Shown here: piece by piece, positions 1,988 to 24,342 of the stretch | Layout of the letters: each line of letters begins with the position of its first letter | How positions within the stretch are numbered: the stretch's first letter is position 1 | DNA from: a virus | Virus record (IMG/VR): IMGVR_UViG_3300046450_002768 | Location: 1-46,180 of that record | Strand: one strand, 5' to 3' | DNA: 46,180 bases | Position numbers and translations under genes: made by a program | The notes under the pieces: model-generated | The model's database searches: none | Seen by the model: only the letters and a program-made list of their open reading frames with translations | Told to the model about the DNA's origin: nothing

Positions 1988-2400
1988 TGGTGGAAGCGGC
2001 GGGAATCGAACCCGCGTCTTTAGAGCCATCGGCTCAGATATACTACAAGCTTAGTCAGTATTATTTAACTCGCTTGGCAGGTTACTGACAAACAGCTTAC
2101 ACGAGTTCGTGGTGCAATTTCTTTAACCTAGCTCGAACCACTCTAAACACTAGGTTTTTGCTCGCTATCGTCGCCCTAGCTCCTTAACGAGCATCTAGAG
2201 TAGGACGGGGCAGAACTTAAGCTGCCAGCGCGGCTTCTTGGAAACCGAAACGTGCGAGAATCTCGTCCGCTTCTGCTACCGAAGGAGCCATGTCAATATT
2301 ACTATTGGCATATATGTTTTAATGGAAGTTTAAAGAGGCCAACCATTATCCTCCGCTTGCAATCTAGCGTAAGAATCTAAATCGAATCCAGTACGCTCCC
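1988..2400 (-). ncRNA. ssrA: tmRNA (transfer-messenger RNA), one-piece
   Basis: The minus strand starts GGGAGCGTACTGGATTCGA, the typical tmRNA 5' end, and finishes GGGTTCGATTCCC (T-arm), CGCTTCC and ACCA. The 7-bp acceptor GGGAGCG/CGCTTCC pairs fully with one G-U, and CCA is encoded. At 413 nt it is of normal one-piece length. An internal frame ends ...ALAA then TAA, the usual proteolysis tag C-terminus. tmRNA with SmpB rescues stalled ribosomes and tags the nascent chain for ClpXP-type proteases; this phage also carries a ClpP. It sits between the recombinase and a nuclease gene. Confidence 0.95.
2217..2288 (-). other. tmRNA tag-peptide reading frame
   Basis: In-frame codons run from GCT (2288) to TAA (2219-2217) and end AALAA. 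The resume codon is not certain: GCT at 2288, GCA at 2276 or GCG at 2270 would give tags of 23, 19 or 17 residues. All are longer than the ten-residue E. coli tag, and the core ADEILARFGFQ is unlike the common ANDE... start. The LAA end is the ClpXP degron. Confidence 0.75.
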
Positions 2401-9175: not shown

Positions 9176-10729
9176 TTATTTCATTCCTTGCGGAAATGTT
9201 AACTTATCAGCATGGTTGACCGTCCAGCTAATTTCATGTGTAACCGCTCTAAATGTTCTTGCCGCACTGGGAAATCCGTTTCCAGATTTTTTTACACCAC
9301 CAAAAGCTAGGTGTGATTCTGCGGCAATTGATCCACCGTTCCAGTAAATCATCCCCGCGTCACATTCATCCCTCAAAATTCGAGCTTTACGGAAATCATT
9401 CGTAAGAACACCTACTGCAAGCCCGTAATCAGTATCATTATAAATATCAATGGCCTCTTCCAAGGTGTCAAAAGGGACAATGGCTACATGAGGGCCAAAA
9501 ACTTCCTCTCGTAAATAGGGGGCGTCCTTGCGCCATTCGCTTTTGTATACCATAGGAGTAGAATAGAAAGCCTCATTATCGCCTATGATATTGTACTCTG
9601 GCTTTAATAAAACCTCTGCTTCGGGGTCAGATTCTACCATCTGATTGTAAAGGACTATCTTGTCAAACCCCTGTTGGTTAATGATAGGCCCGTAATATAT
9701 ATCATCATTTGGCGTGATTTCGTCCCACACTATTCCGTCGGGACAGCCAGAGGTTCCCATATTAGAGGTAAAAGGATTCCCCGTTTTCAACTTAGAAGCT
9801 TCTTCGGCGAAGATGTGGGCAAATGTATCGTAAATTGTTCTTTGAACTAAAATACGACTTGAAGAAACACAGCGTTGTCCAGAAAGTTTGAAGGCGCTAG
9901 CAATTGTTGCTGGTATGGTTAAGCTATACTCCACGTCATCAAAAACAATACATGCAGATTTGCTACCTAATTCACATGAAGTAGTTTTATGCCAAGACTC
10001 TGCAGCAACTTTCCGAATATGCTGTCCGACATCGGCACTACCCGTAAAACAAATATGATCGACATCGCCACGAACCAAGAAGTCACCAGCACTACCATCA
10101 CCATGCACCAGATTAATGACTCCATGAGGGATGCCCGCGTCCACATAAATTTGGACAGCCATTTGAGTTGACATTGGGGCATCTTCACTTGGTTTTATTA
10201 CAATTGTATTTCCTTCTACTAATGCTGGGGCTGCGTTCCAAAACATCCCAATCGCCAAAGGAAAATTAAAAGGCGTTACAATAGCTATTACGCCCTTTGG
10301 CTTCCGTAGCATGTAGGAATCTTTATCTTCTACCTCGGAGGCTACGATTTCTCCGTGGGGATATCGCCCTGACCCAAACGCAAATTGAGCCATGTGTAGG
10401 GCCTCGTTGACCTCGGCAATGCTTTCGTTATAAGTCTTACCAGTCTCTAGAGAGATGACCTTCGCAAGTTTTTCTTTTCTTTCTTCTATTAATTTAGCCA
10501 CTTTATTCAAGTAGTCTGAGCGTACAAATCTGCTAACTTTTTTCCATTTTTTAAAAGCGTGCTGAGCGGAAAGGATGGCCTTGTGAACTGAGGCTTCATC
10601 ACTTAAGGGGAAGGTCCCCTGAACCTTCCCTGTTGAAGGGTTTATCTTGGTGTACAGTTTGCCGGGAACCTCCCATTTCCCATTAATATAATTGCGCCCC
10701 TCAAAGTTCTTCATGGTTTCGAGTCTCAT
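9176..10729 (-). CDS. NAD(P)-dependent aldehyde dehydrogenase
   Basis: 517 residues, full length for the ALDH superfamily. TPFNFPLAI (Asn about 155), FTGSADVGQHI, CELGSKSA (general-base Glu about 253) and SGQRCVSSSRI (catalytic Cys about 287) are all present, as is the EEVFGP motif. The GQRC-x2-SRI context and the C-terminal segment ending LTFPQGMK recall ALDH7-type/aminoadipate-semialdehyde dehydrogenases, though P5C or succinate-semialdehyde activity cannot be excluded. It oxidises an aldehyde to a carboxylate. ATG at 10729 overlaps glf by 4 nt. A lysine-dehydrogenase-like gene lies 1.9 kb downstream in the same transcription unit. Superfamily is certain, substrate inferred. Confidence 0.88.
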   Translation of the reverse strand: MRLETMKNFEGRNYINGKWEVPGKLYTKINPSTGKVQGTFPLSDEASVHKAILSAQHAFKKWKKVSRFVRSDYLNKVAKLIEERKEKLAKVISLETGKTYNESIAEVNEALHMAQFAFGSGRYPHGEIVASEVEDKDSYMLRKPKGVIAIVTPFNFPLAIGMFWNAAPALVEGNTIVIKPSEDAPMSTQMAVQIYVDAGIPHGVINLVHGDGSAGDFLVRGDVDHICFTGSADVGQHIRKVAAESWHKTTSCELGSKSACIVFDDVEYSLTIPATIASAFKLSGQRCVSSSRILVQRTIYDTFAHIFAEEASKLKTGNPFTSNMGTSGCPDGIVWDEITPNDDIYYGPIINQQGFDKIVLYNQMVESDPEAEVLLKPEYNIIGDNEAFYSTPMVYKSEWRKDAPYLREEVFGPHVAIVPFDTLEEAIDIYNDTDYGLAVGVLTNDFRKARILRDECDAGMIYWNGGSIAAESHLAFGGVKKSGNGFPSAARTFRAVTHEISWTVNHADKLTFPQGMK

Positions 10730-11703
10730 ATTTTTTTAAGTTTTTGCATCGTTTGTGCAATGGCTGTGTCCATGTCGAGGTATTTATAGGTCGCAAGTCT
10801 ACCTGTAAATATAACATTTTTTTGATGATGAGCAAGCTTTTTGTATTTTTTATAGAGCTTAACGTTGGCCCCGAACTGTTTGGGGTAAAACGGAACATTT
10901 TGTTTGGTGTGTTCGCACGGATACTCCTTGGAAATAACAGTGTTTTCAGTCTTTTGGGAGTGCCAGTGGGAGTGATCAACACTTCTGGTCCAAGATTTTT
11001 TATTACATTCATTTAATTGGAATATGTCGGGGCGGCGACGTGCTGTTTCAAATTGAATAAACAAAGAGCGGTATTCAAGAGCTCCATAACAATAGTCAAA
11101 GTATTCGTCTATTTTCCCTGTATAAACTAATAAATCAAATTTTTGTTTACGCCATTCCTCAGCAAAGCAATTGAGGTTTACCTTTATGTTGTTTAAAATA
11201 TTTTCAAACATGACCGTATAACCGTTTTCAGGAATTCCTTGGTATTTATCGATGTGAAAACACAAACTCGGGTGGTCTCGTAATTTAGGAACGCGATTCG
11301 TGATTGATGGGGGAAGCTTTTCCCACGGGACACCCCACATTTTTTCACTGTAATCTTTGAAGATTAAATTTATGATTTCTTCGGATGTTTTGTGGCCGAT
11401 TATTTTTTGAGCTGCAGGGCCATAAGGTATCGGTATTACACCTTCAGAAGTATTAGCTTTTACCTGCAAGCAAACATTGTTAAATTTTGTATATCGATTA
11501 AGAAATTCCCAAACTTCTTCATTGTTTGTGTGAAAGCCGTGCGGTCCATATTGGTGAACCATTACCCCTTCTATTTTTTTATCATAACAATTTCCAGCTA
11601 TATGGGGTCTTTGTTCAAATATCTCTACATCATACCCATTTTCTTGCAACAGGGTTGCTGCTACGGCTCCCGAAAGACCGCCCCCAACAACGATTGCTTT
11701 CAT
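10726..11703 (-). CDS. glf: UDP-galactopyranose mutase
   Basis: 325 residues. FAD-binding VVGGGLSGAVAATLL (residues 5-19), EIFEQRPHIAGNCYD (about 28-42) and YGPHGFHTNNEEVWEFL (about 53-69) are signature Glf segments. VIPIPYGPAAQ and the C-terminal FTGRLATYKYLDMDTAIAQ complete the pattern. The enzyme interconverts UDP-galactopyranose and UDP-galactofuranose with reduced FAD. It is somewhat shorter than typical Glf (about 370-390), missing part of the middle, but the core motifs are intact. In a phage glycan operon it would supply Galf to one of the local glycosyltransferases. Confidence 0.9.
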   Translation of the reverse strand: MKAIVVGGGLSGAVAATLLQENGYDVEIFEQRPHIAGNCYDKKIEGVMVHQYGPHGFHTNNEEVWEFLNRYTKFNNVCLQVKANTSEGVIPIPYGPAAQKIIGHKTSEEIINLIFKDYSEKMWGVPWEKLPPSITNRVPKLRDHPSLCFHIDKYQGIPENGYTVMFENILNNIKVNLNCFAEEWRKQKFDLLVYTGKIDEYFDYCYGALEYRSLFIQFETARRRPDIFQLNECNKKSWTRSVDHSHWHSQKTENTVISKEYPCEHTKQNVPFYPKQFGANVKLYKKYKKLAHHQKNVIFTGRLATYKYLDMDTAIAQTMQKLKKI

Positions 11704-11705
11704 TA

Positions 11706-12515
11706 TTAAACCAAGTATCCTTTTTCTTTAAGATTATAAACATCTTTTTCAAAATAGGGATAAGTAATGTGGTTGTGGATAAGGGCTCTGGTCGGGGCGT
11801 TGTTTATTTTTTCTTCAGTCCATGGCCAAGGGTCTACGGGGTATTTTGCTTCAATTAATTTTATTGATAAATTTTCATTATCGTTAGCCTTATTATCCCA
11901 TACATCATCTAATTTTCGAACGTCGGGGTCTACCAGCCACCCCCGCGACTTGTTCATGTCATCAGGAAACAATGGGTTAAGTATGCGAGAATGCATAGAA
12001 TCCTGTATGGTACTCGAGTTCTTATTGTGCATTACGCATCGCCACAAATAATCAGCAGCTTGCCGTGAAATTCCACAGAATCTCTCATCCCACAAGCCTA
12101 CGTGCCTTACTGCTTCGGGAAGATAAGAGTGAAACTGATCGCCGTGTCCGTTTTGGACAAAGGAATATTTTTTATGAATCTCCTCTAGCTTTGAAGCCCA
12201 GTCAGGCCTGAATAATGAATCATCTTGACTACAAACAACCACATCACAATGGGGGTTAATTAGGGATCCAAATCCATTAATAAGTGCTTGATTCCAGTTT
12301 CGCGAAAGGTGGCCAGAAGACCAGTCAGGTCTCAGTCCGTTGTGTAAAATATTAACCTTATGTTCAAATTTGGAGTCAAGTCTAATATCTGAATGATTAT
12401 TTATGATATTAATTTCATAATCATATTTAGTCAAATCACTATTAATTAAAGAGTTTAAAGTGGGGTTGAGTCTTCGGTGGCCTTGATAAGTAACAATATA
12501 TACTTTAATTTTCAT
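11706..12515 (-). CDS. Putative family 2-like glycosyltransferase
   Basis: 269 residues from ATG at 12515; an in-frame GTG at 12533 lies inside the SDR gene and is less likely. The N-terminus MKIKVYIVTYQGHRRLNPTL with YEINIINNHS resembles a GT-A glycosyltransferase opening, and DVVVCSQDDSLFRPDWASKL gives the acidic donor-binding motif (about residue 93). GLWDERFCGISRQAADYLWR sits where GT2 enzymes have the W-D/E acceptor site. No membrane helices. It lies between the SDR and glf, so it may transfer the product of either pathway. Donor and acceptor are unknown. Confidence 0.65.
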   Translation of the reverse strand: MKIKVYIVTYQGHRRLNPTLNSLINSDLTKYDYEINIINNHSDIRLDSKFEHKVNILHNGLRPDWSSGHLSRNWNQALINGFGSLINPHCDVVVCSQDDSLFRPDWASKLEEIHKKYSFVQNGHGDQFHSYLPEAVRHVGLWDERFCGISRQAADYLWRCVMHNKNSSTIQDSMHSRILNPLFPDDMNKSRGWLVDPDVRKLDDVWDNKANDNENLSIKLIEAKYPVDPWPWTEEKINNAPTRALIHNHITYPYFEKDVYNLKEKGYLV

Positions 12516-12519
12516 AATT

Positions 12520-13188
12520 TTAATGGATTTCACTATCAGGAAATACGGTTAATTCTTTAAACACAATGCGGCTAGGAGAGTCCATTATGAAGTTTAAAAT
12601 ACGAACTATATCTTCAGGGGTAAGGAGTCGGCTTAAGTCTCCCTTGTAGGGGTTGTTAGGGCCCCATAAAGGGGTCTTAATGCCACCGGGGCATAAATTA
12701 GTAACCTGAACACCCTTTTCGACTAATTCTTGGTTTAAGGAGTCCATAAAGCCCGTTATTCCGTGTTTACTGGCTGAATAGGCAGCTTGGTTCTTTATGC
12801 CGTGTTTTCCTGAAACAGAGGAAATGTTGATGATTCTTCCGCTGCCCATTTTCCCTAAAGCCGCTCGGGTAACAAAAATAGTGCCTTTTAGGTTGGTGTC
12901 TATTATTTGCCCAATCATGTCTGTGCTTTGTTTTGTAAAAGGCATAGACTCGAAGATTGCAGCACAATTAATTAAACAATAAATATTTTCAATTCGGGAG
13001 AAGGCGGCACTAACATCTTTGGGGTTGGAAATATCTGCCTTTACAAATTTAAAGTTAGGCGATCGATATAGGTCTCCTAGGTTATTGTCGTTGCGTGAAA
13101 TTCCAAAAACATTATATTTTTTAGAAAAAAATTCGGCAGCAGCATAACCAACGCCACTGTTTACGCCTGTTATTACCAGATTATTCAT
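12520..13188 (-). CDS. Short-chain dehydrogenase/reductase
   Basis: 222 residues. ITGVNSGVGYAAAEFF (residues 5-20) is the TGxxxGxG cofactor motif, NCAA near 76 the structural NAG-like motif, ISSVSG near 125 carries the catalytic Ser and YSASKHG near 138 the Tyr-x3-Lys. NLCPGGIKTPLW is the usual post-catalytic segment. Classical SDRs reduce or oxidise a carbonyl/alcohol pair with NAD(P)H. It starts 4 nt inside the end of the sugar phosphate cyclase gene, so the two are translationally coupled. By analogy to cyclitol pathways it may reduce the valiolone-type ketone made by that enzyme. Confidence 0.88.
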   Translation of the reverse strand: MNNLVITGVNSGVGYAAAEFFSKKYNVFGISRNDNNLGDLYRSPNFKFVKADISNPKDVSAAFSRIENIYCLINCAAIFESMPFTKQSTDMIGQIIDTNLKGTIFVTRAALGKMGSGRIINISSVSGKHGIKNQAAYSASKHGITGFMDSLNQELVEKGVQVTNLCPGGIKTPLWGPNNPYKGDLSRLLTPEDIVRILNFIMDSPSRIVFKELTVFPDSEIH

Positions 13189-14312
13189 TCTGTAAATTTT
13201 TCAAAAACACCTACAACATCGTGCATTTCGGGGAGGGTGACATCATTAATGAAAACACAACTGCCTAAACGGTTTGGTATTGGAAGATTCTGGTTTCCGT
13301 TGCGATGTTTAGTTGTATCTAACAGGGACTCCCACAGCATTAAAACATTCTTAAAGTAGGGGTGGGTTACTGATAGGTTGCACATTTGGCACAGTTCAAT
13401 AATTCGGTTAAGAGATTCTTTGGAGAGCAACCCCCTATTGTAAGATAGGCAAGATGAGAAAATAATATCTAAGGTGACAGCTTGTCCGTGGGATAAAGAC
13501 GGAACAGTGCTATCTTTAAGGGAGTTCATTTCAACTAGAGGGCTAAAGGAATGCCCGAAGTCCACAACTCTTTCTAAGTTCTTTTCTAAAAGGTCTGGTT
13601 GTAACTCCTGTATCATATCGTGTATGGCATGCGAAATTATCTTATCAGCCGGTCCATCTACTAGAAATTTTTCTTTTATAACTTGAGGTGCATGAGTTTC
13701 TAACAGAGAAAGCAATTTAGTATTTTTAATAACTGCAATTTTTATTATCTCGCCCATTGCCTGATGTATTTCTTGGGGCGGTACTGTTTCGAGAAATGTC
13801 TTATCTAGGTAAACGCCTTGAGGGGCGTAATAGGTACCGAGTCTATTTCTTCTTCCGAAGTGGTTAATGGATGTTTTGACCCCGATGCTGGCATCCACAA
13901 TAGCCAAGAGAGTGGTGGGTACTTTTATGTACGGAACACTGCGGCGAAACAGGTTGGACGCAAACCCAACTATATCCAGCAGTACGCCACCACCCATACA
14001 GATAATCGGTTCGTTTCTTCTGAGAAGTCCAAAGTTTTCAATCGTGTTTAAAATAAACATTAAGGTTTCTATATCTTTTTTTTCTTCTGATATATCAATT
14101 GGAACTATTTTAGCCTCAATGTTGTTGTGTGAGAAATACAAGTGTATCTTTTTCCCAAAGTGAGAAAAAACCTCTGAATCAACAAACAGTAACCTTCGTG
14201 AGGAATCGCCCAATTCCAATAGGCTATTATTGTTGGGGTCTAGGATATTTTTTACGGTTTTAATTGTAAAGGAAACCGGTAAATTAGACTGAACTGTCCA
14301 TCCTGCACTCAT
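13185..14312 (-). CDS. Sugar phosphate cyclase, 2-epi-5-epi-valiolone synthase-like
   Basis: 375 residues with the dehydroquinate-synthase fold. MGGGVLLDIVGFASNLFRR (106-124), VPTTLLAIVDASIGVKT (131-147), NRLGTYYAP (156-164), GEIIK (187-191), DFGHSFSP (251-258) and SHGQAV (274-279) supply NAD and metal sites, with Glu188, His254 and His275 as likely ligands. The LLDIVGF, RNRLGTY and KHRNGNQNLPIP (335-346) versions match the 2-epi-5-epi-valiolone synthase branch (AcbC/ValA type), not DHQ synthase, which has GGGxxGDxxGF. Such enzymes cyclise sedoheptulose 7-phosphate to a C7 cyclitol. Desmethyl-4-deoxygadusol synthase is the close alternative. Flanking SDR, kinase and nucleotidyltransferase genes fit a cyclitol route. 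Confidence 0.82.
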   Translation of the reverse strand: MSAGWTVQSNLPVSFTIKTVKNILDPNNNSLLELGDSSRRLLFVDSEVFSHFGKKIHLYFSHNNIEAKIVPIDISEEKKDIETLMFILNTIENFGLLRRNEPIICMGGGVLLDIVGFASNLFRRSVPYIKVPTTLLAIVDASIGVKTSINHFGRRNRLGTYYAPQGVYLDKTFLETVPPQEIHQAMGEIIKIAVIKNTKLLSLLETHAPQVIKEKFLVDGPADKIISHAIHDMIQELQPDLLEKNLERVVDFGHSFSPLVEMNSLKDSTVPSLSHGQAVTLDIIFSSCLSYNRGLLSKESLNRIIELCQMCNLSVTHPYFKNVLMLWESLLDTTKHRNGNQNLPIPNRLGSCVFINDVTLPEMHDVVGVFEKFTE

Positions 14313-15286
14313 TCTTTTAAAAGGTCTCCCACTAGATAAGAGGCTAGATCATAAAATAAAAACATTTTATCTCGGTCCCCTTTCATCTTAAAGGGTAGCA
14401 TTCTGATGAATTGTGAAACTTCAAAGTATTTCACCATTTTAATTTCATCTTCGGATAATGTTTTTTTCATAAAATCCAAAAATAATATATTAAAATAACT
14501 TATTCCTAGTGGTATGGGAGGACCCTCTTTCCTGTCGTGCCACCGCTGACCATTGGACTCATTATATATTTCGTAATGGCTATTGCAAGACTGTAAAATC
14601 TGAGAATATTCATTATAAATGTTATCTATTATATTTTCCTCATAGGGGTCAATGAAAATAACTTTATTATCCTTCGGTGAATACAGGATGTTTTCTAGAG
14701 TTATGTTGCCATGAGTGTAGCATTCCGTGGTAGAAGTATAGTGAGTAAATCCATACTGACGATAATCCTGCAGGAGAGAGCTTAGGGATGGTATAAGCTT
14801 GCCGTGGAATTTAATAGTAGGGCGATTGTAGTAATTGGAAAATTCTTCATCAATAAAACAATCTTTAATTTTTTTTATTATTTCTTCCTCGTAATAAAGG
14901 TGAAGTGCCTCAGGGCACGAGGGTAGTTGTTTTGAGTGTACAATATTCATAGCCCTTATTATCAGGTTGAAAATTTTTTCTATTTCCTCCTTGTCGTCGC
15001 ACTGCATGAGGTATGACCAGCAATTGTGGTAATTAGCGTAATGTTCTAAATCAAAAAAAGCTCGGTCACCCTCTATGCCGTAACGTATAACCTTGGCGAA
15101 AATGGAAGGGAATAGGAGTTCATATCGTTGTAGCCTCTTAAGTTGGGAGTACCACCTTTGATAGCCATATTCCCTTTCTCTTCTTAAAGAAATCTCCTTT
15201 CTGACGAAGGTGCCGCCTGTCCCGCTTATGAGGTAGGTGCCGGCTAGGGAGCCACCTTTAAGTAGTGTTTTTGTGCTGTGAATCAT
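14309..15286 (-). CDS. APH/choline-kinase-fold phosphotransferase
   Basis: 325 residues. The key segment near 190-215 reads CYTHGNITLENILYSPKDNKVIFIDPYEEN: HGN-x4-N is the catalytic loop and IDP the metal-binding Asp motif of the aminoglycoside phosphotransferase/protein-kinase-like fold. The N-terminal GGSLAGTYLISGTGGTFVRKE resembles the nucleotide-binding loop with its conserved Lys. These kinases phosphorylate hydroxyls of small molecules or sugars. The catalytic residue is Asn where many have Asp, as HGN/HGD variants exist. The gene overlaps the nucleotidyltransferase upstream and the cyclase downstream, so a cyclitol or sugar is the most likely substrate. Confidence 0.7.
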   Translation of the reverse strand: MIHSTKTLLKGGSLAGTYLISGTGGTFVRKEISLRREREYGYQRWYSQLKRLQRYELLFPSIFAKVIRYGIEGDRAFFDLEHYANYHNCWSYLMQCDDKEEIEKIFNLIIRAMNIVHSKQLPSCPEALHLYYEEEIIKKIKDCFIDEEFSNYYNRPTIKFHGKLIPSLSSLLQDYRQYGFTHYTSTTECYTHGNITLENILYSPKDNKVIFIDPYEENIIDNIYNEYSQILQSCNSHYEIYNESNGQRWHDRKEGPPIPLGISYFNILFLDFMKKTLSEDEIKMVKYFEVSQFIRMLPFKMKGDRDKMFLFYDLASYLVGDLLKE

Positions 15287-16007
15287 GAATCTTTAAATCA
15301 AAAAACCCCATAGAGTTTATGTATTCTTGGGGCGTCCCCAGTACAAAGGTATCATTGCCCGTACTTGTGCTTGTTATTTTTACTTTCAGACCATCCTTGA
15401 TCATTTTCATTATAGAATTACTAATGTAGTAATTGTCTGAGTCACTTAAATAATCAAAAGCTAAATTTAAATCTTTGAAAAAATAGCACCCAGACGAGGC
15501 CATGTCAGAAACTAATTGCTTTTCTACGATTGTGGACACCGTGTCGCCATCGGTTAAAACATAACTATAGGCTTCATTGTTAGCAGAAAATACATCTATT
15601 ATACAATCGGAGTGTGTGAGTCTGTTTGAAATACTTTTAAAGTTTCTATTAAGAAGAATGGTATCAATGTTGTGCACTGTTAAGGGTTGTTCGAAAGACG
15701 TTTCCCCTTTTAAAAACTTCAACCCCTCTACAGCGGTAACAGACTGTCCTAGTGTGTCGTCAATAAAGGTAATGTGCTTCCGTGGAAAATTGAACTCTTC
15801 TAGCGTTCTGGAAATCTGAGAATGAAACCTCATGTCTTTCTTATTAGCCACAAGGATTACTTCATTAAACATATTTGTATCTCTAAAAGAAGATAAAATG
15901 TGATGAAGAATGGTTCGGTTAGATAAGGGGAGTAGGTACTTCGGAATTGCGTAGCTAAATTCTTTAAAGCGACTGTACTCCCCTGCCATTGTAAGCATTA
16001 ATACCAT
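15258..16007 (-). CDS. Sugar nucleotidyltransferase (NTP_transferase family)
   Basis: 249 residues from ATG at 16007, placed 1 nt after the upstream stop; a longer frame to 16100 reads into the sulfotransferase gene and lacks the fold. MLTMAGEYSRFKEFSYAIPKYLLPLSNRTILHHIL is a degenerate version of the LAAGxGxRxxPxTxxxPKxLLP signature, with the conserved Pro-Lys and a normal second half, but the glycine loop reads AGEYSRF. HNIDTILLNRNF is the metal-binding Asp region, and MASSGCYFFKD the later conserved strand. The family activates sugar 1-phosphates to NDP-sugars. The altered loop may mean changed nucleotide specificity. Position next to the kinase and cyclase suggests it activates a cyclitol phosphate. 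Confidence 0.72.
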   Translation of the reverse strand: MVLMLTMAGEYSRFKEFSYAIPKYLLPLSNRTILHHILSSFRDTNMFNEVILVANKKDMRFHSQISRTLEEFNFPRKHITFIDDTLGQSVTAVEGLKFLKGETSFEQPLTVHNIDTILLNRNFKSISNRLTHSDCIIDVFSANNEAYSYVLTDGDTVSTIVEKQLVSDMASSGCYFFKDLNLAFDYLSDSDNYYISNSIMKMIKDGLKVKITSTSTGNDTFVLGTPQEYINSMGFFDLKIHDSQHKNTT

Positions 16008-16008
16008 C

Positions 16009-16698
16009 TTATCCCCATGTATCAAATTTGAAGGGGTCTCCTTCGGCGTTTTCGTCTTCCTTGAACCACTTTGAGTTTTGTCCTTTGATGGGCCAATCAA
16101 GTTTGTCTAAGCCATTGAATTCTAGGTTTAAAAACTTTGATAATTGAGGTACAAACAGGTCTGGATCGGTTGTTATTTCTTCATAACTAAACATATACCA
16201 AGGGTACCCTGTCTGTGGAACATTCTCATAAAAGTAAGAAATCCCCCTTTTAACCATATGGAGGTGGGTGTCTAGAGAGTCTGGCGGCCCAAACCGGGAA
16301 TCTCCGTGTTGTTTATATTGCTTGATCCTTGATTTAGTTACTGCGATCCAACTACGGGTGATTCCTAGGAAAACGGGTAAGTAATTTCTCTTTTCTAAGG
16401 TTTCAATTATTGATGGAATATCTACCATTCTGTCGTTATGGGTGGCCCACTGTGGGCTTGCTAAATCAAAAAGCCCCGAGGGTAGTGACCATCTCACCAT
16501 AATCAAATCTTCACTTTCCTCAGGAAGAGACCCGTCCGTGACCTGCCCCTTAAGCCCGCAGCATTTTAGTAGTATCTCTGCCAATAGTTTGGTACCGCTT
16601 ATTTCTGGCCCCAGAACTATATAGGCTCGCCTTTTCTGTTCTAGCAGAGAGTGGGGTGTCTTGGGCAGCCCTTGTGTTATCAGTTCTGTGTTATCCAT
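16009..16698 (-). CDS. Sulfotransferase-like P-loop protein
   Basis: 229 residues. AYIVLGPEISGTKLLAEILLKC (about 25-46) is the 5'-phosphosulfate-binding loop in the form GxxxSGTxLL seen in sulfotransferases. FLGITRSWIAVTKSRIKQY (about 114-132) gives the Arg and Ser positions of the 3'-phosphate-binding site, and WYMFSYEEITTDPDLFVPQLSKFL matches the sulfotransferase YExL-type C-terminal motif. It would transfer sulfate from PAPS to a hydroxyl of a glycan. No PAPS-synthesis gene is in the window, so the host must provide the donor. A second sulfotransferase is at 44406-45116. Confidence 0.65.
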   Translation of the reverse strand: MDNTELITQGLPKTPHSLLEQKRRAYIVLGPEISGTKLLAEILLKCCGLKGQVTDGSLPEESEDLIMVRWSLPSGLFDLASPQWATHNDRMVDIPSIIETLEKRNYLPVFLGITRSWIAVTKSRIKQYKQHGDSRFGPPDSLDTHLHMVKRGISYFYENVPQTGYPWYMFSYEEITTDPDLFVPQLSKFLNLEFNGLDKLDWPIKGQNSKWFKEDENAEGDPFKFDTWG

Positions 16699-17585
16699 TT
16701 TTCTAGCATTACTTTAGGTTCGTAACCTAGCTTAGTTTTAATTTTATTTATGTTAGCCAATGTGGTCTGCGCTTCCCCGGGTCTTGGAGGTATGTATGTA
16801 ATTTCTGAACCCACTAGGTTGGCTATTTCTACAATAGAATGATTAGAGCCTGTTCCGACATTAAAAATTTCTCCCGCAACAGGATCTTTTTCATTGTGGG
16901 GGACAAACGCCGCAAGAATGTTGGCCTGAACCACGTCAGATACATGGGTAAAATCTCGTCGCTGGGTTCCGTCACCCACAACTGTTAATGATTCCCCGTT
17001 CTCTTTTTGTCTCTGAAAAATTCCTATAACAGGTGCGTATTGACCTTTGAGAGGTTGCCTTTCGCCGTACACGTTAAAGTATCTCAACACCACCGTCTCT
17101 AGGCCCCACAGGGTATAATACATCTTACAAAGGTCTTCGGCGGCAACTTTACTCACCGAGTAGGGGTTGAGGCAATCACGTTCCATTTCTTCTGTTAGCG
17201 GCGGCGTGTGTTTTAGGCCGTAACATGATGAAGTGGAAGAATAGACAACTCTTTTAATTTTAAATTGTTTTGCCGCCTGAAGAACATTACACGTGCCGAC
17301 AAAGTTTGTTGAACATGCCTTTTGGGGCCTCTCGAGTGTCGGTTGAATTCTGGATTCTGCAGCCAAGTGAAACACGTAATCTACACCTTTAAAAAGTGGG
17401 CTTATTTTAGAGAAATCTTCTATATCCTCTAGGTGATAAGTTGCCCCGTCATTTTTGAAGAATTCCTCATTGCACTCGGCTGACTCGTTATCTATAACGA
17501 GAACGTCATCTCCAGCATCTACGAGTGAATCTACTATGTGGCTCCCAATAAAGCCGCACCCTCCTGTGACAATACATTTACTCAT
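16680..17585 (-). CDS. NAD-dependent sugar epimerase/dehydratase (GalE-like)
   Basis: 301 residues from ATG at 17585, chosen because the Rossmann motif IVTGGCGFIGSH then begins at residue 5; an extension to 17654 reads the previous gene. HLAAESRI near 77, STSSCYG near 120 with the catalytic Ser/Thr, NPYSVSK near 145 with Tyr-x3-Lys, and RYFNVYGERQ near 172 identify an extended SDR acting on nucleotide sugars, closest to UDP-glucose 4-epimerases and UDP-glucuronate modifying enzymes. It overlaps the cytidylyltransferase upstream by 8 nt. C-terminus GYEPKVMLEKWI is slightly short. The exact reaction cannot be fixed from motifs. Confidence 0.85.
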   Translation of the reverse strand: MSKCIVTGGCGFIGSHIVDSLVDAGDDVLVIDNESAECNEEFFKNDGATYHLEDIEDFSKISPLFKGVDYVFHLAAESRIQPTLERPQKACSTNFVGTCNVLQAAKQFKIKRVVYSSTSSCYGLKHTPPLTEEMERDCLNPYSVSKVAAEDLCKMYYTLWGLETVVLRYFNVYGERQPLKGQYAPVIGIFQRQKENGESLTVVGDGTQRRDFTHVSDVVQANILAAFVPHNEKDPVAGEIFNVGTGSNHSIVEIANLVGSEITYIPPRPGEAQTTLANINKIKTKLGYEPKVMLEKWITQN

Positions 17586-17988
17586 TTTCTTTAATTCTCT
17601 TTCTAAGTTCTGAGGTTGACCATGGATGGTTTCTTTCATGAAAGAATATTTCAATATTTAATTCTTGTCCAGTAAAATCTTTATTCTTGTAGTCAGTTCC
17701 CAGAATGCGAACATCTGGCTTGATTTTCTTAAGTAAGAAAACTAAATCTTCCTCTGTTTCGTAGAGTTCTATTTGGTCTACATATTTTAAGCTTTCTAGT
17801 TGAATTTTACGTTCATCTAGAGATTGGATCGGTTGATTTTTTTCGGGCCTATCTATGGATGGGTCTGACTGTAGGGCCACCACAAGCCAATCACATTGCT
17901 CCCGTGCGTCTTTAAGCATTAAACAGTGTCCTGCGTGTAATAGGTCGAAACAGCTGGCGGTAAATCCGATTTTTAATTTTTTGTACAT
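17578..17988 (-). CDS. Cytidylyltransferase-like nucleotidyltransferase (RfaE-C/TagD family)
   Basis: 136 residues. GFTASCFDLLHAGHCLMLKDAREQCDWL (about 8-35) contains the HxGH signature (HAGH) of the cytidylyltransferase-like superfamily, and PIQSLDERKIQLESLKYVD is the downstream conserved region; STSELRKRI near the end is the ISST-like motif. Relatives attach CMP or AMP to glycerol 3-phosphate, heptose 1-phosphate or ethanolamine phosphate. It overlaps a GHMP kinase of the heptose-kinase type upstream and a nucleotide-sugar epimerase downstream, the order found in NDP-heptose modules. A second HAGH protein lies at 42707-43195. Confidence 0.82.
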   Translation of the reverse strand: MYKKLKIGFTASCFDLLHAGHCLMLKDAREQCDWLVVALQSDPSIDRPEKNQPIQSLDERKIQLESLKYVDQIELYETEEDLVFLLKKIKPDVRILGTDYKNKDFTGQELNIEIFFHERNHPWSTSELRKRIKENE

Positions 17989-18908
17989 AAGTAGGGAATC
18001 TCTGCAACCCCGATTGGTATGTCGAAGGTGGGTTCGTTATAGTTTTTATCACGGAAAATCAAAAAGAAACCACCATTACCTGCCCCACATAAGCGGTGAG
18101 CTAGGGTAGATTTATCTTTATATAAAGAACGATCCATCTCCTTTAGTTTTTCGTTTTCTAAAATAAGAGGGGAAGTGCTTTTTTTGACCTCCCATGACTC
18201 TTGCATTAATCCTAAAAATTTACTTACATCATTCTTTTTTATGGCGTCACTCATGTAACTAACAAAGGGTAAAAGGGCCTCGCTGCGCTTTGTGTCAATG
18301 CTGGACAAAACCTTTGTGGAACTTCTTTGTATTCCTGTTGGGCGAAGATACATTTTAAATTGGTTTAAGAAATCTTTTCTAAGCCCCGCATGGGTAACGC
18401 TTCCGTCTTTAAGGAAAACTAATTGCTTGAGCCCTTCGGTTGCACAGCCATAAATGTCTTGGTAGCCGGTTAAGGGATTAAATTTTCTTTCTAGCTCAAG
18501 TCCAAGCTCGCATATTTCCCATGTATTCATCTGGACATTAAGATGAGTGCTTACTGCCTTGATACAGCTAATTAGATAGGAGGATGAAGAGGCTAGACCT
18601 GAGCCTGATGCAAAAACGTCCGAGTGAAAATTTAAGGTAACAGGGGGGCAGTTGAAGTGCTCTAAGACTACCCTCCCAATGTCGTTGTGGATATCTTTAA
18701 CTTGCTCTACTTCTTCACGTTGAGTGTAGTTCAATAGGTAGGTATTAAGCTTATTGTACCCACCTTTATCTTTAAACAGGGTGATATAAGTATAAATATT
18801 ACAAGGGAAACTTATTACACTTCCGTACCCATAGTTTTCTATAAATTCTTGCAGGTCCGTAGACCCTCCTGCTAAGGATATGCGAGTGGAACACTTACTA
18901 ATTATCAT
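17973..18908 (-). CDS. GHMP-family sugar kinase (HddA-like)
   Basis: 311 residues. STRISLAGGSTDLQEFIENYG (about 7-27) is the N-terminal substrate motif typical of D-glycero-D-manno-heptose 7-phosphate kinases and related sugar kinases. ASGSGLASSSSYL (about 104-116) is the GHMP ATP-binding loop, and HRLCGAGNGGFFLIF (about 274-288) is motif 3. These enzymes phosphorylate the anomeric or other hydroxyl of a sugar with ATP. The following gene is a nucleotidyltransferase that could activate the product. Since both heptose 7-phosphate and the cyclase substrate derive from sedoheptulose 7-phosphate, a C7 theme links this block. Confidence 0.85.
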   Translation of the reverse strand: MIISKCSTRISLAGGSTDLQEFIENYGYGSVISFPCNIYTYITLFKDKGGYNKLNTYLLNYTQREEVEQVKDIHNDIGRVVLEHFNCPPVTLNFHSDVFASGSGLASSSSYLISCIKAVSTHLNVQMNTWEICELGLELERKFNPLTGYQDIYGCATEGLKQLVFLKDGSVTHAGLRKDFLNQFKMYLRPTGIQRSSTKVLSSIDTKRSEALLPFVSYMSDAIKKNDVSKFLGLMQESWEVKKSTSPLILENEKLKEMDRSLYKDKSTLAHRLCGAGNGGFFLIFRDKNYNEPTFDIPIGVAEIPYLCTKN

Positions 18909-19999
18909 GTTTTGTAAAGTTGTAAGATTTTATCTCTTATCGTGGCGTAGCTATATTTTGCAGTATATTTCTCCTCTGCTGCTAGGGAGAGGGTTTGGTA
19001 GTAGGCATCGTTTTGTTCTAGCGTAAGCATTTCTTGTGCATACTCCTGAACACTGTACACCATCTTACCGCAGCCTTCTATTTGCTCTTGGTGACCCATG
19101 TTCATAGCAGGGTGTGATATAACCGGCTTCCCGTGATACAGAGCCTCAATGATCGCAGCAGAGCAAACTTCTCCATCATTACGGGCGTGTGCAAAAACAT
19201 CAATACCGCCGAGAAAATCATGTATATCGTTTACACAACTAGAAAAATCTATAAACTTAATATGAGGGCAATTTATTTGTTCTGCGAATTTTCGGTGTTG
19301 TTCTGATGCGCCCATAATTATGAAATAATTATTTTCATTTTTAATTTGATTATAAGCTTCAAGGGAAACTGGTGAATAAATATCTTCACGGCTCCCTTGG
19401 TGGAATCCATAAACAAAGGCATCTGAGGGGATGCTGAGTTTTTGCCTAAGTAAGCTGGGGGTTTTGGGCGGAACTTTAACTAGGGTGGGTATAACCGTGG
19501 CTTTAGCAATATTGCCTCCGTTCTCGGACCACTGTTTAGCCTGCCATTCACATAATAAAATAACCTTGCTAATGTTAACCTTGTCTTCTCCGTCCTGACC
19601 GTGAATTGTGTCAATTATTTTTGTCTTATTAATAAGATGAAACGGGTACTCGGGGTAACCAGAGCGAGCACTCGAAACATAATCATATTGATTCTCATCA
19701 AAAAGTTCCCAAAAATTAGTATTGATCCATTCATAGGGCGGCCCGCTCCCGTCTTTATTTTGCACGTCTACTTTTATTAGATTAATTTGATGATCCTCCA
19801 TTATTTTTTGTCTAGATTCATCATTATCGGGGTGTATAAACGGGGAACTCCAGTTTATATAAGGGGCGGCATTAGTATAATAGTAATCCACCTCAAACTG
19901 TTGGCTGTTTGATAATATACAGGCAATGTTTTGGAGGTATTTTTCACAACCTCCTGCGGCTAATCCTGCAAATTTAATAAATGCTATTTTTTTCAACAT
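18905..19999 (-). CDS. Family 4-like glycosyltransferase (GT-B)
   Basis: 364 residues. The N-terminal FIKFAGLAAGGCEKYLQNIACIL resembles the glycine-rich acceptor loop of GT4 enzymes. The second domain has VYGFHQGSREDIYSP, then GGIDVFAHARNDGEVCSAAIIEALYHGKPVISHP, where the E-x7-E motif that contacts the nucleotide sugar is replaced by the similar GEVCSAAIIEA pattern. The C-terminus is helical. It retains a sugar from an NDP donor with the anomeric configuration preserved. Stop and start overlap the GHMP kinase and GT25 genes by a few nucleotides. Donor and acceptor unknown. Confidence 0.75.
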   Translation of the reverse strand: MLKKIAFIKFAGLAAGGCEKYLQNIACILSNSQQFEVDYYYTNAAPYINWSSPFIHPDNDESRQKIMEDHQINLIKVDVQNKDGSGPPYEWINTNFWELFDENQYDYVSSARSGYPEYPFHLINKTKIIDTIHGQDGEDKVNISKVILLCEWQAKQWSENGGNIAKATVIPTLVKVPPKTPSLLRQKLSIPSDAFVYGFHQGSREDIYSPVSLEAYNQIKNENNYFIIMGASEQHRKFAEQINCPHIKFIDFSSCVNDIHDFLGGIDVFAHARNDGEVCSAAIIEALYHGKPVISHPAMNMGHQEQIEGCGKMVYSVQEYAQEMLTLEQNDAYYQTLSLAAEEKYTAKYSYATIRDKILQLYKT

Positions 20000-20715
20000 A
20001 CACCTCCGTGGGTTTGCCTATGGTTATCGTCATTTAAAGTTGTTTTATAAAGACCGTTCTCGGACCCCTGTACAACTAAGGGTGGTTCCCACCAGTAGGT
20101 TTTTACATTGTGTAGGTGTAGTTGGTAGCCAAGCTCCCAGTCGCTTATTGTGTTAAAGGGCTTCATAGTAGAGATAATTTTTTCAGCTACTTCTTTACGC
20201 AGGATGTATGAATCGCCACCTCTTGATGCAGGGTGGGGGACTTGATAGGCGTTTATGTTTTCTTTAATAAAATGAGGCGGTATCCTTAACCCGGCGCAAC
20301 ACCCCATGAAGATGGCCCCCCAATCGTTAGGTGTATTGGAAAGAAAAGTGTTAAAAGTTTCAGGAAAATTTTCCACAAACAATACGTCGTCTTCCAGTAT
20401 TAAACCGTAATCAGTACACTTCTCGGCGACACTTTTAATACCAAGGTAATGTTTAATGGTACATGAGATTTCAGCTCGGTTAAGTTTTCGGAAGGGGGCT
20501 GTTTTGACGCCCCAGAGGGGGTCTATTTTGGCGTTATATTCTTCTTCGTTAGTTGAGTACCACTCATTTACAACATCCTCAGTCAGGTCTTCTTGGTCGT
20601 AATCTAAAATATACTCTACCTCTAGGTTGTGTCGTTTAAGGTATTTATCCAACCTCTCTCTTCTTTCCGTGAGTTTGGTATAGTGGAGTACGAAAATTTT
20701 TTCTACATTAAGCAT
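19993..20715 (-). CDS. Family 25 glycosyltransferase (LPS/LOS-type)
   Basis: 240 residues from ATG at 20715, which overlaps the fucosyltransferase stop by 8 nt; a longer frame to 20769 reads the neighbour. EKIFVLHYTKLTERRERLDKYL is the classic GT25 N-terminus, AEISCTIKHYLGIKSV the conserved helix, and DYGLILEDDVLFVENF carries the LEDD donor/metal motif near residue 107. GGDSYILRKEVAEKI near 173 is also conserved. GT25 enzymes add galactose or related sugars in lipo-oligosaccharide or to hydroxylysine. The C-terminus is Cys-containing with no membrane helix. Strong family match, substrate unknown. Confidence 0.85.
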   Translation of the reverse strand: MLNVEKIFVLHYTKLTERRERLDKYLKRHNLEVEYILDYDQEDLTEDVVNEWYSTNEEEYNAKIDPLWGVKTAPFRKLNRAEISCTIKHYLGIKSVAEKCTDYGLILEDDVLFVENFPETFNTFLSNTPNDWGAIFMGCCAGLRIPPHFIKENINAYQVPHPASRGGDSYILRKEVAEKIISTMKPFNTISDWELGYQLHLHNVKTYWWEPPLVVQGSENGLYKTTLNDDNHRQTHGGVC

Positions 20716-21637
20716 TTTTAATAACCTTTTCTTCAAAAAATTTAAGCACAGATGAGGGTAAAAATTCATCTTTGATTTGCTTGTTGTTAAAAAGCGGCTC
20801 CCTGTGATAGCTTAAGTATAGCTCTTCATTGCCGTCTACCTCCAGAACGTGATCCACGAGTTTGTCCATCGACTCAAAGTCATTAAGGTTTATAAAACTT
20901 TTAACATTAAAATCATTAGCACATCTTTCGTCACTCCAATAAATCGGTACCGTCCCGGCTGTCTTGGCATGAAAAAGCTTTTCGGTGTAATACCCTCCGA
21001 CTGGAGAGATAGAATTCTCAAAACAAATAGAAAATTTATACTGAGAGAGCACCTTGTACTTGTTGTACTCTCCGTAGAACCAGTTGTTAAAGGGTTGTCC
21101 ATACCCGTGAACCTCTTTATGTTTGTTTAATTTATTTAAAATTTCCAGACGCCTAGGTACTGGGTTATTAAAAATAAAAGCACAGAACTTGATCTTGGGC
21201 ATAGCGATAGCTGGGTTGCTGTAAATTTGGTTGAGCGGTAATATAAACTGTGGGTTAACGTACCCCCCCTTTTCAAACCAGTCAATTTGAAGAGCCCATA
21301 GAGGCAAGCGGTAATGGCGTGGGTCATTACTGAAATCAAAGGTAAAGGCAAAATCACACTTTCCAATACTATACATGGTGTGTTCTGCTGAGTCGTTGCC
21401 ATAGTTAGGCCTAACATTTTCACCTGAAAAGAAAACCTTTGTGCATCGGTGGTCTTTGTATTTATCTCGGGCACGTTGCTTGGCGTAATCAACAGAAAAG
21501 AATAGAATATCGGGGTCGCCTTCGCTAATTTCAACGTCAAATTTTGAATTCAATAAGTGATAAAAGTAATTATTATCCTTATGGAAGTCTGGCCAGAAAT
21601 CTACAAAATTTATTTTTAATTTAGGTTGCTGAGTCAT
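20708..21637 (-). CDS. GT10 alpha-1,3/4-fucosyltransferase
   Basis: 309 residues. VFFSGENVRPNYG (about 88-100) and the hallmark KFSICFENSISPVGGYYTEKLFHAKTAGTVPIYW (about 203-236) define GT10: the FExS, YxTEK and YWG elements bind GDP-fucose. AFTFDFSNDPRHYRLPLWAL is the conserved middle segment. These enzymes transfer L-fucose from GDP-fucose to GlcNAc or a related acceptor. Gmd and a phosphomannomutase in the same window could help make the donor. The gene overlaps the epimerase upstream by 17 nt and the GT25 gene downstream by 8 nt. Confidence 0.87.
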   Translation of the reverse strand: MTQQPKLKINFVDFWPDFHKDNNYFYHLLNSKFDVEISEGDPDILFFSVDYAKQRARDKYKDHRCTKVFFSGENVRPNYGNDSAEHTMYSIGKCDFAFTFDFSNDPRHYRLPLWALQIDWFEKGGYVNPQFILPLNQIYSNPAIAMPKIKFCAFIFNNPVPRRLEILNKLNKHKEVHGYGQPFNNWFYGEYNKYKVLSQYKFSICFENSISPVGGYYTEKLFHAKTAGTVPIYWSDERCANDFNVKSFINLNDFESMDKLVDHVLEVDGNEELYLSYHREPLFNNKQIKDEFLPSSVLKFFEEKVIKNA

Positions 21638-22682
21638 GTTCGTATTTAACTATCTCTTCAATAATCTGGTCAATGCTGTGGGTTAATTGCCATGAGGGGA
21701 AGTGGTTTTGAAATTTAGAAAAGTCAGTAATGTACCACATGTGATCTCCTGCTCTAGCTTGGGGGCTTAAGGAGTATGAGTCCCACTTTTTGTTGGAGAT
21801 TTTTTTAATTTTATCTATAGCCTCGAGGACGGATACCGAATTGCCTCTTCCGCCCCCTACATTGTAGACTTCTCCTCTTCTTGGTTTTTGGTGGAACTCC
21901 CAGAACATATTAACTAAATCAGCGCTATGTATATTATCCCTGACCTGTTTTCCTTTATACCCAAATATAGTATAATCCTCACCATGCGTAATACATTTTA
22001 CTAAATATGAAAGGAACCCGTGAAGCTCTGCCCCTTTATGGTTTGGCCCTGTGAGGCAGCCACCCCTAAAAACTCCTGTTTTGATATTGAAGCACCTGCC
22101 GTATTCTTGAACCATTATGTCTGCTGCCACTTTTGAGGCTCCAAAAATAGAATGAGTACACTGATCAATAGACATGCCTTCATCAATGCTATAAGGGAGA
22201 CCTTGGGGGTCGAAGCATTCATACCTAGTTTCAAGTTCTGTTAACTTAAGCTTGTTGGGTGTATCCCCGTAAACTTTATTCGTTGAGGTGAAAATGAAGG
22301 TAGCCTCGGGGCAGTATAGGCGGCATAATTCAAGGAGATTCAAGGTTCCTTGGGCGTTAACCGAAAAATCCGTAAGCGGCTCTCTTACAGCCCAGTCGTG
22401 AGATGGCTGGGCGGCGGTGTGGATTATTAGGTCAATGTTCGTTTTTTTAAAAACGAATTCTATGGCACCCATTTCTCTTACATCTAGCGGGAGGCACTGG
22501 TATAAGGGGTACTTGGATTCTAGCCTCTCTTTAATTGACTGAGTTGATGCGTCCCGACCAAAGAAGTAAGCCCGCATATTGTTGTCTACACCAATGACAT
22601 TAAAGCCCAGATCGCTAAAAAATTCAACACACTGAGATCCTATTAAACCTGATGCCCCTGTTATCAATACGTTTTGTTTCAC
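21621..22682 (-). CDS. NAD-dependent nucleotide-sugar epimerase (CDP-tyvelose epimerase-like)
   Basis: 353 residues with a GTG start forming a GTGA overlap with the upstream gene. LITGASGLIGSQCVEFF (residues 5-21) is the Rossmann loop. HTAAQPSHDWAVREPLTDFSVNAQGTLNLLE (about 92-122) is the pattern of the CDP-paratose/tyvelose 2-epimerase branch. TSTNKVYGD gives the catalytic Thr region; the expected YxxxK appears as the later SIFGASKVAAD segment, where Tyr is replaced by Phe. YNVGGGRGNSVSVLE is the C-terminal conserved part. The Phe at the catalytic Tyr position deserves checking. Reaction uncertain; it could be an epimerase or a structural homologue. Confidence 0.8.
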   Translation of the reverse strand: MKQNVLITGASGLIGSQCVEFFSDLGFNVIGVDNNMRAYFFGRDASTQSIKERLESKYPLYQCLPLDVREMGAIEFVFKKTNIDLIIHTAAQPSHDWAVREPLTDFSVNAQGTLNLLELCRLYCPEATFIFTSTNKVYGDTPNKLKLTELETRYECFDPQGLPYSIDEGMSIDQCTHSIFGASKVAADIMVQEYGRCFNIKTGVFRGGCLTGPNHKGAELHGFLSYLVKCITHGEDYTIFGYKGKQVRDNIHSADLVNMFWEFHQKPRRGEVYNVGGGRGNSVSVLEAIDKIKKISNKKWDSYSLSPQARAGDHMWYITDFSKFQNHFPSWQLTHSIDQIIEEIVKYEHDSAT

Positions 22683-23485
22683 CCGAGCCCCTTTTTGTTG
22701 ACGTATTGTGGGAAAAGAATTGTATCTGGGTTGAAGTCTTTCCAGATAGAATCATAAAGTTCCTTAGAGAGAGTAATATTTTTTAATTCAGACCAGTCAT
22801 TTAATACTAAAAATGGCATATCTTTATAAAAATCCATATTTATACTTTTTGTAACTATGGGAATTGTTTTTAAATATAGAGCTTCCCAGTGTTTATGGCA
22901 ATCTATTCCATTGCCGTTAGGGGAGAGGGCAAAGTAGGACTCTGACATAGTGTTCAGATAAGTTGGAAAGTCTACCCTGTCGGCGTTTTGTAGCCCCGTC
23001 TCTTCTAAGCACGAAAGTCTTTCCCGTGGGTTAGTCCCTATGTCAAAATTAACATAAACTAGGGAGGTCTTCCTGTATGTCGCTGGTTGGGATTCGAGGA
23101 TCACCTTGCTAACCTCATTGGGGCTTCCGTGCGCCCATTTAGGGTTAGCCAGCCCTATTGGAATTGATTCGAGCTTAGGGTGCTTAAGGTTTATGTTTTG
23201 TCCATACCATTTCTCTACCAATGGGTGGTCGATGAATTGGCGAAATCTTTCATCAATAGCCTCATCGGAGTTATGCGTAATTACCGTAAAGGGGAAGTCT
23301 AAATGGATGTGTTCAAAAAACGGAAATGTGTACTCTGTTTTTATGAAGACATAATTATTTTCTACGTCATCTCGTACCTTAAAATTGAAGTGGTGTTCTC
23401 TGGCGGATGTATAGTGGCCACAGGAGTATTTGCAAATACTTTTGAATGCGTTACCGCTTAGATATTTATAGTTATTTTTTTTCAC
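22679..23485 (-). CDS. Exostosin-like (GT47-type) glycosyltransferase, putative
   Basis: 268 residues from a GTG start (GTGA overlap). The most informative segment, SESYFALSPNGNGIDCHKHWEALYLKTIPIV (about 186-216), matches the exostosin-type C-terminal motif SPRGNGxDxHRxWExLxxGxIPIV. HPKLESIPIGLANPKWAHG near 121 resembles the strand before the donor site. No signal peptide or transmembrane helix. Exostosin-like enzymes are inverting transferases; here it would add a sugar to the phage-specified glycan. Family assignment rests mainly on this motif. Confidence 0.62.
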   Translation of the reverse strand: MKKNNYKYLSGNAFKSICKYSCGHYTSAREHHFNFKVRDDVENNYVFIKTEYTFPFFEHIHLDFPFTVITHNSDEAIDERFRQFIDHPLVEKWYGQNINLKHPKLESIPIGLANPKWAHGSPNEVSKVILESQPATYRKTSLVYVNFDIGTNPRERLSCLEETGLQNADRVDFPTYLNTMSESYFALSPNGNGIDCHKHWEALYLKTIPIVTKSINMDFYKDMPFLVLNDWSELKNITLSKELYDSIWKDFNPDTILFPQYVNKKGLG

Positions 23486-24342
23486 CGTGTGGCAATTGCG
23501 CTAATTATATCGTATATTTCTTGACGTTTGTTTGTCATTTCGGCTATTAGTTCTTCGCCGTCCTTATTAAACCACGGTTCGTGGGATGCGCCTAGTAGGT
23601 TGTTGAATGCAACCTTTACGTTCATCATTTTAGCCTCTAGAACCATTCGACCACAGGTCTCGGGGGTTTTTGGCCAAAACACCAAACTTTGGTTTTTTGA
23701 AATTTTACGTAAAAAAGATTCGTAATCCGCGTCAAATATTAGTTCATAATCCATCTTATTGTCTATGCAAAATTTAATAGCTTCTGGGGTTCCTTTTTCC
23801 GCATAGTGAGATTTAACCACAGAGCTCATGGGTTTTTTGTCTCCATCGGAAAGGTCACGCATCACGGCCAGAGCTTCAAGCGACCAAAGGTTGCCTGAAA
23901 AATTTAAAGTCTTAACATTGTCTTTTAAATTTTTGTCGTAAATTTTTTGTTGTAAACTGGATTGGCAAATTACAGATTTAGCTGCCCTGAAGAAATCTAC
24001 ACAAATCAATTCATTTTCGGGGACTATAAAATTGTCGTATCTGGCGGGGTTCATGTGGTTAACGAACTTATAATCATGGGCGTAAATAATGTATTTTAAT
24101 TCCTCAAATTCCTTAAGCATTTCAATGGACGAGAAACGAAAAAAATTAGAAATTATAAAAAATGAATCTTTTTCTTTTTTAAGGAAATCCGAAGTCACAT
24201 CGGGGCTTTTAAGCTTAACTATCTCTTGACCGTTGGCCTTAAATATATCAATAAGAATTTCATCATTAAGAGCGGCCCCGCCAGCGTGCCCCCCGCCAGC
24301 TAAGTCTTCTGAGAAAAAGTCATTAATTAAAATATAACGCAC
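23482..24342 (-). CDS. GT-B-like glycosyltransferase, first gene of the glycan operon
   Basis: 286 residues, GTG start at 24342. The N-terminus YILINDFFSEDLAGGGHAGGAALND resembles a GT-B acceptor loop, YIIYAHDYKFVNHMNP is near 84, and VFWPKTPETCGRMVLEAKMMNVKVAFNN (about 221-248) is a donor-site E-x7-E-type motif (P-x2-ETxGRMVLEAK). It is the first gene of the chain that runs leftward for about 20 kb. A dyad-containing putative promoter is directly upstream and its -10 lies about 5 nt from the GTG, so the message may be nearly leaderless. Donor unknown. Confidence 0.66.
   Translation of the reverse strand: MRYILINDFFSEDLAGGGHAGGAALNDEILIDIFKANGQEIVKLKSPDVTSDFLKKEKDSFFIISNFFRFSSIEMLKEFEELKYIIYAHDYKFVNHMNPARYDNFIVPENELICVDFFRAAKSVICQSSLQQKIYDKNLKDNVKTLNFSGNLWSLEALAVMRDLSDGDKKPMSSVVKSHYAEKGTPEAIKFCIDNKMDYELIFDADYESFLRKISKNQSLVFWPKTPETCGRMVLEAKMMNVKVAFNNLLGASHEPWFNKDGEELIAEMTNKRQEIYDIISAIATR

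Follow-up and report, generated by a model that had tools for sequence, protein, structure and literature searches.

A phage-borne four-gene cassette predicted to make a nucleotide-activated C7-cyclitol

Most of what is known about C7-cyclitol pathways based on a 2-epi-5-epi-valiolone synthase (EEVS) concerns the secondary metabolism of actinobacteria and the gadusol of animals. In the acarbose and validamycin pathways the branch leading to a nucleoside diphosphate (NDP)-cyclitol (AcbC, AcbN, AcbU and AcbR) follows a logic of cyclisation, reduction, phosphorylation and nucleotidylation, and in the acarbose chain AcbR follows the kinase AcbU and produces GDP-valienol, with which the chain ends (PMC9200736). 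Here, a locus with the same enzymatic logic is described from a 46,180-base phage genome fragment recorded as a virus in IMG/VR (hereafter the window), in which a 375-residue cyclase gene (13185-14312) lies in a cassette with genes for a kinase, a nucleotidyltransferase and a reductase. The explanation favoured here, with fair confidence, is that host sedoheptulose 7-phosphate serves the phage as starting material for an NDP-C7-cyclitol and that a neighbouring glycosyltransferase puts the resulting pseudo-sugar on a glycan.

A preliminary description of the sequence had said that the acarbose and validamycin pathways use the same set of enzymes, which holds only in part. As protein families, the cyclase, C1 reductase, kinase and nucleotidyltransferase of the acarbose type are all present in the cassette; the ROK-type 7-kinase, the 2-epimerase and the dehydratase are not among its core genes. 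The cassette differs further in that its kinase belongs to a distinct APH-fold family and in that it is phage-borne, within glycan islands. Within the same superfamily as the viral cyclase, and with related substrates, are the DDGS (mycosporine) and EboD cyclases; two sites tell EEVS from DDGS (PMC4426668). A ‘3-dehydroquinate synthase’ of this superfamily has been reported from prasinoviruses of algae (OtV5 and relatives), where it is set as dehydroquinate synthase (DHQS) by annotation, and the available portions of those papers describe no cassette (PMC2386258, PMC5371798). The open-access literature yielded no paper linking a sedoheptulose 7-phosphate cyclase and phage, an absence that is not proof, and searches of it for cyclitol with bacteriophage and for carbasugar with phage gave no description of such a pathway.

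The cyclase

That the 375-residue protein is an EEVS-type sedoheptulose 7-phosphate cyclase, and not a DHQS, is well supported by sequence comparison and structural modelling. By sequence, its best PDB match is the EEVS ValA (285 bits, 40% identity). ValA is also the top fold match (TM 0.91/0.95, E 2.9e-34) of its AlphaFold2 model (pLDDT 92), ahead of DDGS (E 2.0e-32) and DHQS (E 1.1e-24). The residues checked for the EEVS class were E188, H254, H275, D251 and H336, and the class-separating residues D251, P258 and H336 of the window cyclase correspond to D281, P288 and H360 of ValA. The two sites that distinguish EEVS from DDGS are presumably 281 and 360, in agreement with this alignment. All 38 viral and all 50 actinobacterial EEVS sequences compared have the Asp/Pro/His fingerprint, which is complete in all but one of the 83 distinct EEVS-type viral sequences (82/83) from the wider set of fetched loci. 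In contrast, DDGS has Ala/Pro/Thr at these sites, thus differing at both diagnostic positions, EboD keeps a His at the Pro site, and DHQS has Asn/His and no final His; residues of the Asn268/His275 type of DHQS (AroB) are missing from the window cyclase. DDGS and EboD are accordingly rejected by residues, although the position of DDGS in the tree is less clear-cut.

In a tree of 52 sequences the viral cyclases form one clade (100/99), which also takes in cyclases encoded in a Halomonas genome, in a Myxococcales metagenome-assembled genome (MAG) and in a Woesearchaeota MAG. This clade lies inside an EEVS plus DDGS superclade (99/95); DHQS is separated by a split of 100/98, and EboD too falls beyond the EEVS/DDGS part. 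Neither DDGS nor EboD is placed in the viral clade. The EEVS call made in the preliminary description is thus borne out by tree, fingerprint and fold. The two cyclase motifs that it had quoted are also real, and KHRxGxQxxPxP is common to ValA. Overall, the viral cyclase shares with ValA-type EEVS the fold, the metal ligands, the fingerprint residues and this C-terminal motif, but differs in its approximately 40% identity, in its separate clade and in the lack of a secondary-metabolite cluster round the gene.

A second, DHQS-type cyclase family with the Asn/His fingerprint occurs on other viral contigs, separate from the cassette (loci L311-L313, L319-L321, L324, L327 on a 358-kb contig, L329, L336, L346 and L347). 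This family may relate to the DHQS reports from prasinoviruses.

The conserved cassette and its kinase

Families were assigned to the open reading frames (ORFs) of the window by Pfam, NCBIfam, PDB and PHROG matches. All of the ORFs that had been named before are present at the places given, on the minus strand, and the four core genes are as follows.

15258-16007, minus strand: core gene 1, NTP transferase of the sugar-1-phosphate type (PF00483, 8.5e-6, over the cut-off)
14309-15286, minus strand: core gene 2, APH-fold small-molecule kinase-like protein, 325 residues (AlphaFold2 fold; Pfam matches of its family)
13185-14312, minus strand: core gene 3, EEVS-type sedoheptulose 7-phosphate cyclase, 375 residues (DHQ_synthase fold, E 2e-32; ValA best PDB match)
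12520-13188, minus strand: core gene 4, short-chain dehydrogenase/reductase (SDR), presumed to reduce a ketone (PF00106, 1.5e-39; YxxxK motif by eye)

The family given earlier for the NTP transferase holds; its start does not, since the starts of orthologs place it at ATG 16007 and not at 16100. The kinase and cyclase genes overlap by 4 nt, as do the cyclase and SDR genes.

Neighbourhoods were collected from two viral scans and one genome scan and fell into 15 viral and 2 cellular lineages (17 in all) below 90% identity. Throughout the 17, the APH-fold kinase gene lies directly upstream of the cyclase gene and an NTP transferase gene is always near, mostly at position -2; an SDR gene follows the cyclase gene in most. 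The order is therefore NTP transferase, APH-fold kinase, EEVS, SDR, and the combination of cyclase, kinase, nucleotidyltransferase and reductase foreseen in the preliminary description is general to the 15 viral lineages, with these neighbours conserved in related phages. Coupling was tested independently by a search of viral contigs in which the kinase family was the sole query: in the 76 newly fetched loci an EEVS gene was adjacent every time (76/76) and an NTP transferase gene stood beside the kinase gene in 73. A cyclase search (77 loci) gave the kinase in 75, the NTP transferase in 73 and the SDR, beside the cyclase, in 75, with all exceptions at contig edges. The broadest cyclase scan of IMG/VR returned 117 viral contigs. 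The Myxococcales copy has, after the cyclase and in the usual place of the SDR, a fusion of an aldo/keto reductase with a methyltransferase, so that the reduction step appears to be kept with a different enzyme. The core is proposed to be a mobile, repeatedly transferred four-gene phage cassette.

In one subgroup of the phages (L103:4290-5795; also the L090-L110 group) the NTP transferase and kinase genes are separated by genes for a RuBisCO-large-subunit-like protein of 372-412 residues (PF00016, 4e-33) and a small cupin-like protein (by eye), possibly an isomerase or epimerase that acts on the cyclitol or on its precursor.

The window kinase has no Pfam match of its own; among 20 members of its family, 11 match fructosamine kinase and 5 match APH. 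Its AlphaFold2 model (pLDDT 92) matches methylthioribose kinase, N-acetylhexosamine 1-kinase (NahK), maltokinase and APH(2''), and the earlier assignment to the APH fold is upheld. NahK, one of these nearest structures, phosphorylates sugars at the anomeric position and thereby supplies a nucleotidyltransferase. KGGSLxxT, K30 and D213 are invariant in the family, and the fold, Gly-rich loop (KGGS), Lys and metal Asp of an APH-type enzyme are all found. The sequence HGNxTLEN is likewise invariant (20/20), and the HGN signature occurs in the cellular copies also. A search for the kinase family in 299 genomes from the phylum of a Rhodanobacter MAG gave just weak APH-like matches, and 193 genomes from the phylum of the Woesearchaeota MAG gave one full-length match, in the same MAG as the L004 locus.

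Flanking genes and viral carriers

On either side of the core the window carries the following genes.

10726-11703, minus strand: UDP-galactopyranose mutase, flanking glycan gene (PF03275, 9.8e-53)
11706-12533, minus strand: GT2-like glycosyltransferase adjoining the SDR (PF00535, E 1.3e-3, below the cut-off)
16009-16698, minus strand: unassigned ORF, sulfotransferase-like by eye only (no Pfam or PHROG match; conserved at L062, 80%)
16680-17585, minus strand: NAD-dependent sugar-nucleotide epimerase/dehydratase, GalE-like (PF16363/PF01370, about 1e-54)
17578-17988, minus strand: RfaE-domain-II-like nucleotidyltransferase, non-core (CTP_transf_like, 6.6e-14; TIGR02199, 4e-27, below the cut-off)
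17973-18908, minus strand: GHMP kinase, HddA-like heptose kinase, non-core (PF00288, 2e-9; NF049969, 1.4e-22, below the cut-off)
18905-24342, minus strand: glycosyltransferase/epimerase block (GT1-like, GT25, GT10 fucosyltransferase, more transferase-like ORFs and an epimerase)

The epimerase had not been named in the preliminary description; its ORF spans 16680-17654 and the start was corrected to ATG 17585. The GHMP kinase and the RfaE-like cytidylyltransferase, previously counted as part of the cyclitol pathway, were rejected as core genes, as they look heptose-type and recur in only 2/17 and 3/17 lineages, respectively. They probably form a separate heptose-type sugar branch (17578-18908, minus strand), and this phage would then have two branches fed by sedoheptulose 7-phosphate.

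Glycosyltransferases had been placed inside 12520-18908, where none is found; they flank the stretch on both sides (11706-12533 and from 18905 onward). The GT2-like gene is kept in the lineage of the window, L060 and L062 and is a candidate transferase for that lineage only. The commonest candidate cyclitol transferase is the small glycosyltransferase-like family phrog_13607, near the cassette in 11/15 viral groups (members at L107:7583-8290, L063:5796-8965, L083:11753-12526 and L110:11058-11903). A 183-residue VOC-like gene (by eye) separates the UDP-galactopyranose mutase gene from the aldehyde dehydrogenase gene in two relatives (L060:3716-4267 and L062:13563-14114) and is missing from the window at about 10701-10729.

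Phage genes of the window encode a UvsX-like recombinase, a ClpP-type head maturation protease, ribonucleotide reductase, dNMP kinase and a sigma factor. A close relative of 99.8 kb (G002, bearing L062) adds DNA polymerase, a DnaB-type helicase, rIIA, a clamp loader and a tail fibre. A T4-type major capsid gene (gp23) is present on 10 cassette contigs (56-172 kb), to which the matches of a terminase search were confined, and one capsid protein is 67% identical to cyanophage capsids and 66% to that of pelagiphage HTVC008M. A cyanophage host was sought through psbA, but none of 16 contigs carries psbA or psbD. The 394-kb contig of L063 bears one cassette copy and an IF-3-like gene (by eye). Among the cultured phages of INPHARED no relative of the cassette kinase was found; cyclase matches there are just 24-31% identical, those annotated being dehydroquinate synthases, and no cultured phage has the cassette. 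PHROGs holds no family for the window cyclase. Elsewhere in the window are a tmRNA (1988-2400, minus strand), whose predicted 30-residue tag, ANSNIDMAPSVAEADEILARFGFQEAALAA, is unusually long, and a galactose-3-O-sulfotransferase-like gene (44406-45116, plus strand; phrog_3347, 5.9e-19).

Proposed pathway and alternatives

In the proposed pathway the EEVS would cyclise host sedoheptulose 7-phosphate to 2-epi-5-epi-valiolone, as expected of its class, and the SDR would give a carba-sugar polyol by reducing the ketone of the ring. The APH-fold enzyme, with its unusual active site, would then phosphorylate a ring hydroxyl, and the NTP transferase would form the NDP-cyclitol. Finally, a neighbouring glycosyltransferase, differing among phages, would transfer the pseudo-sugar to a glycan, most likely a polysaccharide of the host surface or a glycan of the virion. 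Such an activation chain is chemically sound, because acarbose biosynthesis runs one (PMC9200736). The cyclase class, the enzyme folds and fingerprint, the gene order and coupling, and the phage context are directly supported; the activities are predicted from sequences and models. An activated NDP-cyclitol as the product is a strong inference. A glycan is its most likely fate, since the phage copies of the cassette sit in glycan islands and the Woesearchaeota copy lies between flippase-like and glycosyltransferase-like genes (by eye). No evidence was found for attachment to DNA or the virion, as had been suggested.

Several observations weigh against this pathway. The main weakness lies in the kinase, in which the catalytic Asp of the HGD motif is replaced by Asn (HGN) in all 20 family members, so that the enzyme may work differently or be dead. 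The family has an invariant Glu directly before the metal-binding Asn. SelO, a pseudokinase-like enzyme, has its catalytic Asp at the matching position, and by this analogy E198 may be the catalytic base, which is a lead and not a result. Moreover, a scan of the core genes and ten module proteins found no acarbose-type 7-kinase (ROK), 2-epimerase or dehydratase, and the product should therefore be a simpler polyol than valienol. No one glycosyltransferase is common to all lineages, the tree gives no settled branching order for viral cyclases, actinobacterial EEVS and DDGS, and all viral copies of the cassette are metagenomic.

The cassette might instead yield a free C7-cyclitol, such as a sugar-mimic inhibitor or a UV screen. 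Most known products of EEVS and DDGS, among them acarbose, validamycin and gadusol, are free metabolites, and the neighbours of the Halomonas relative, judged by eye, include PfkB/ROK-type kinases and a transporter-like gene. This is nonetheless unlikely, given that a nucleotidyltransferase is a constant partner, that glycan genes lie all round, and that no methyltransferase/oxidase or ATP-grasp partner is common to the lineages. Low probability is likewise given to a different product from sedoheptulose 7-phosphate (EVS-like, DDGS-like or a new stereoisomer), the remaining pathway being as proposed; the viral clade stands apart from that of ValA, its order with DDGS is not settled, and the subgroup with the RuBisCO-like and cupin-like proteins would fit, but every tested ValA-type fingerprint residue is kept. 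Another reading, more doubtful still, is that kinase and nucleotidyltransferase work as a separate pair of the LicA/LicC kind, activating some other metabolite, and that chance or common regulation has put them beside the cyclase. In bacteria there are indeed loci, examined over 3.5-3.8 kb, in which an APH-like protein has an NTP transferase close by and no EEVS, but the present kinase family was never without EEVS in 76 viral loci and has its own HGN signature, in cellular copies too. That the cyclase is an ordinary DHQS, as the automatic labels aroB/DHQ_synthase would have it, or that a chimeric contig has brought in host DNA, is scarcely credible in the face of tree, fingerprint and fold, of phage genes on the same contigs (gp23 in ten), and of a cassette found in many independent contigs.

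If the NDP-cyclitol is indeed transferred to a glycan, a more speculative possibility is that phages build and attach carba-sugars, that is, hexose-like glycan units without a ring oxygen, which glycosidases and depolymerases could not cut. The surface of the host, or the virion, would in this way be given a new coat against host enzymes or rival phages. A phage cassette of this kind, conserved and transferred repeatedly, would be a viral auxiliary pathway of a new type and would supply small soluble enzymes for activated carba-sugars. If true, it would mean that carba-sugar nucleotides serve as glycan donors in nature outside antibiotics.

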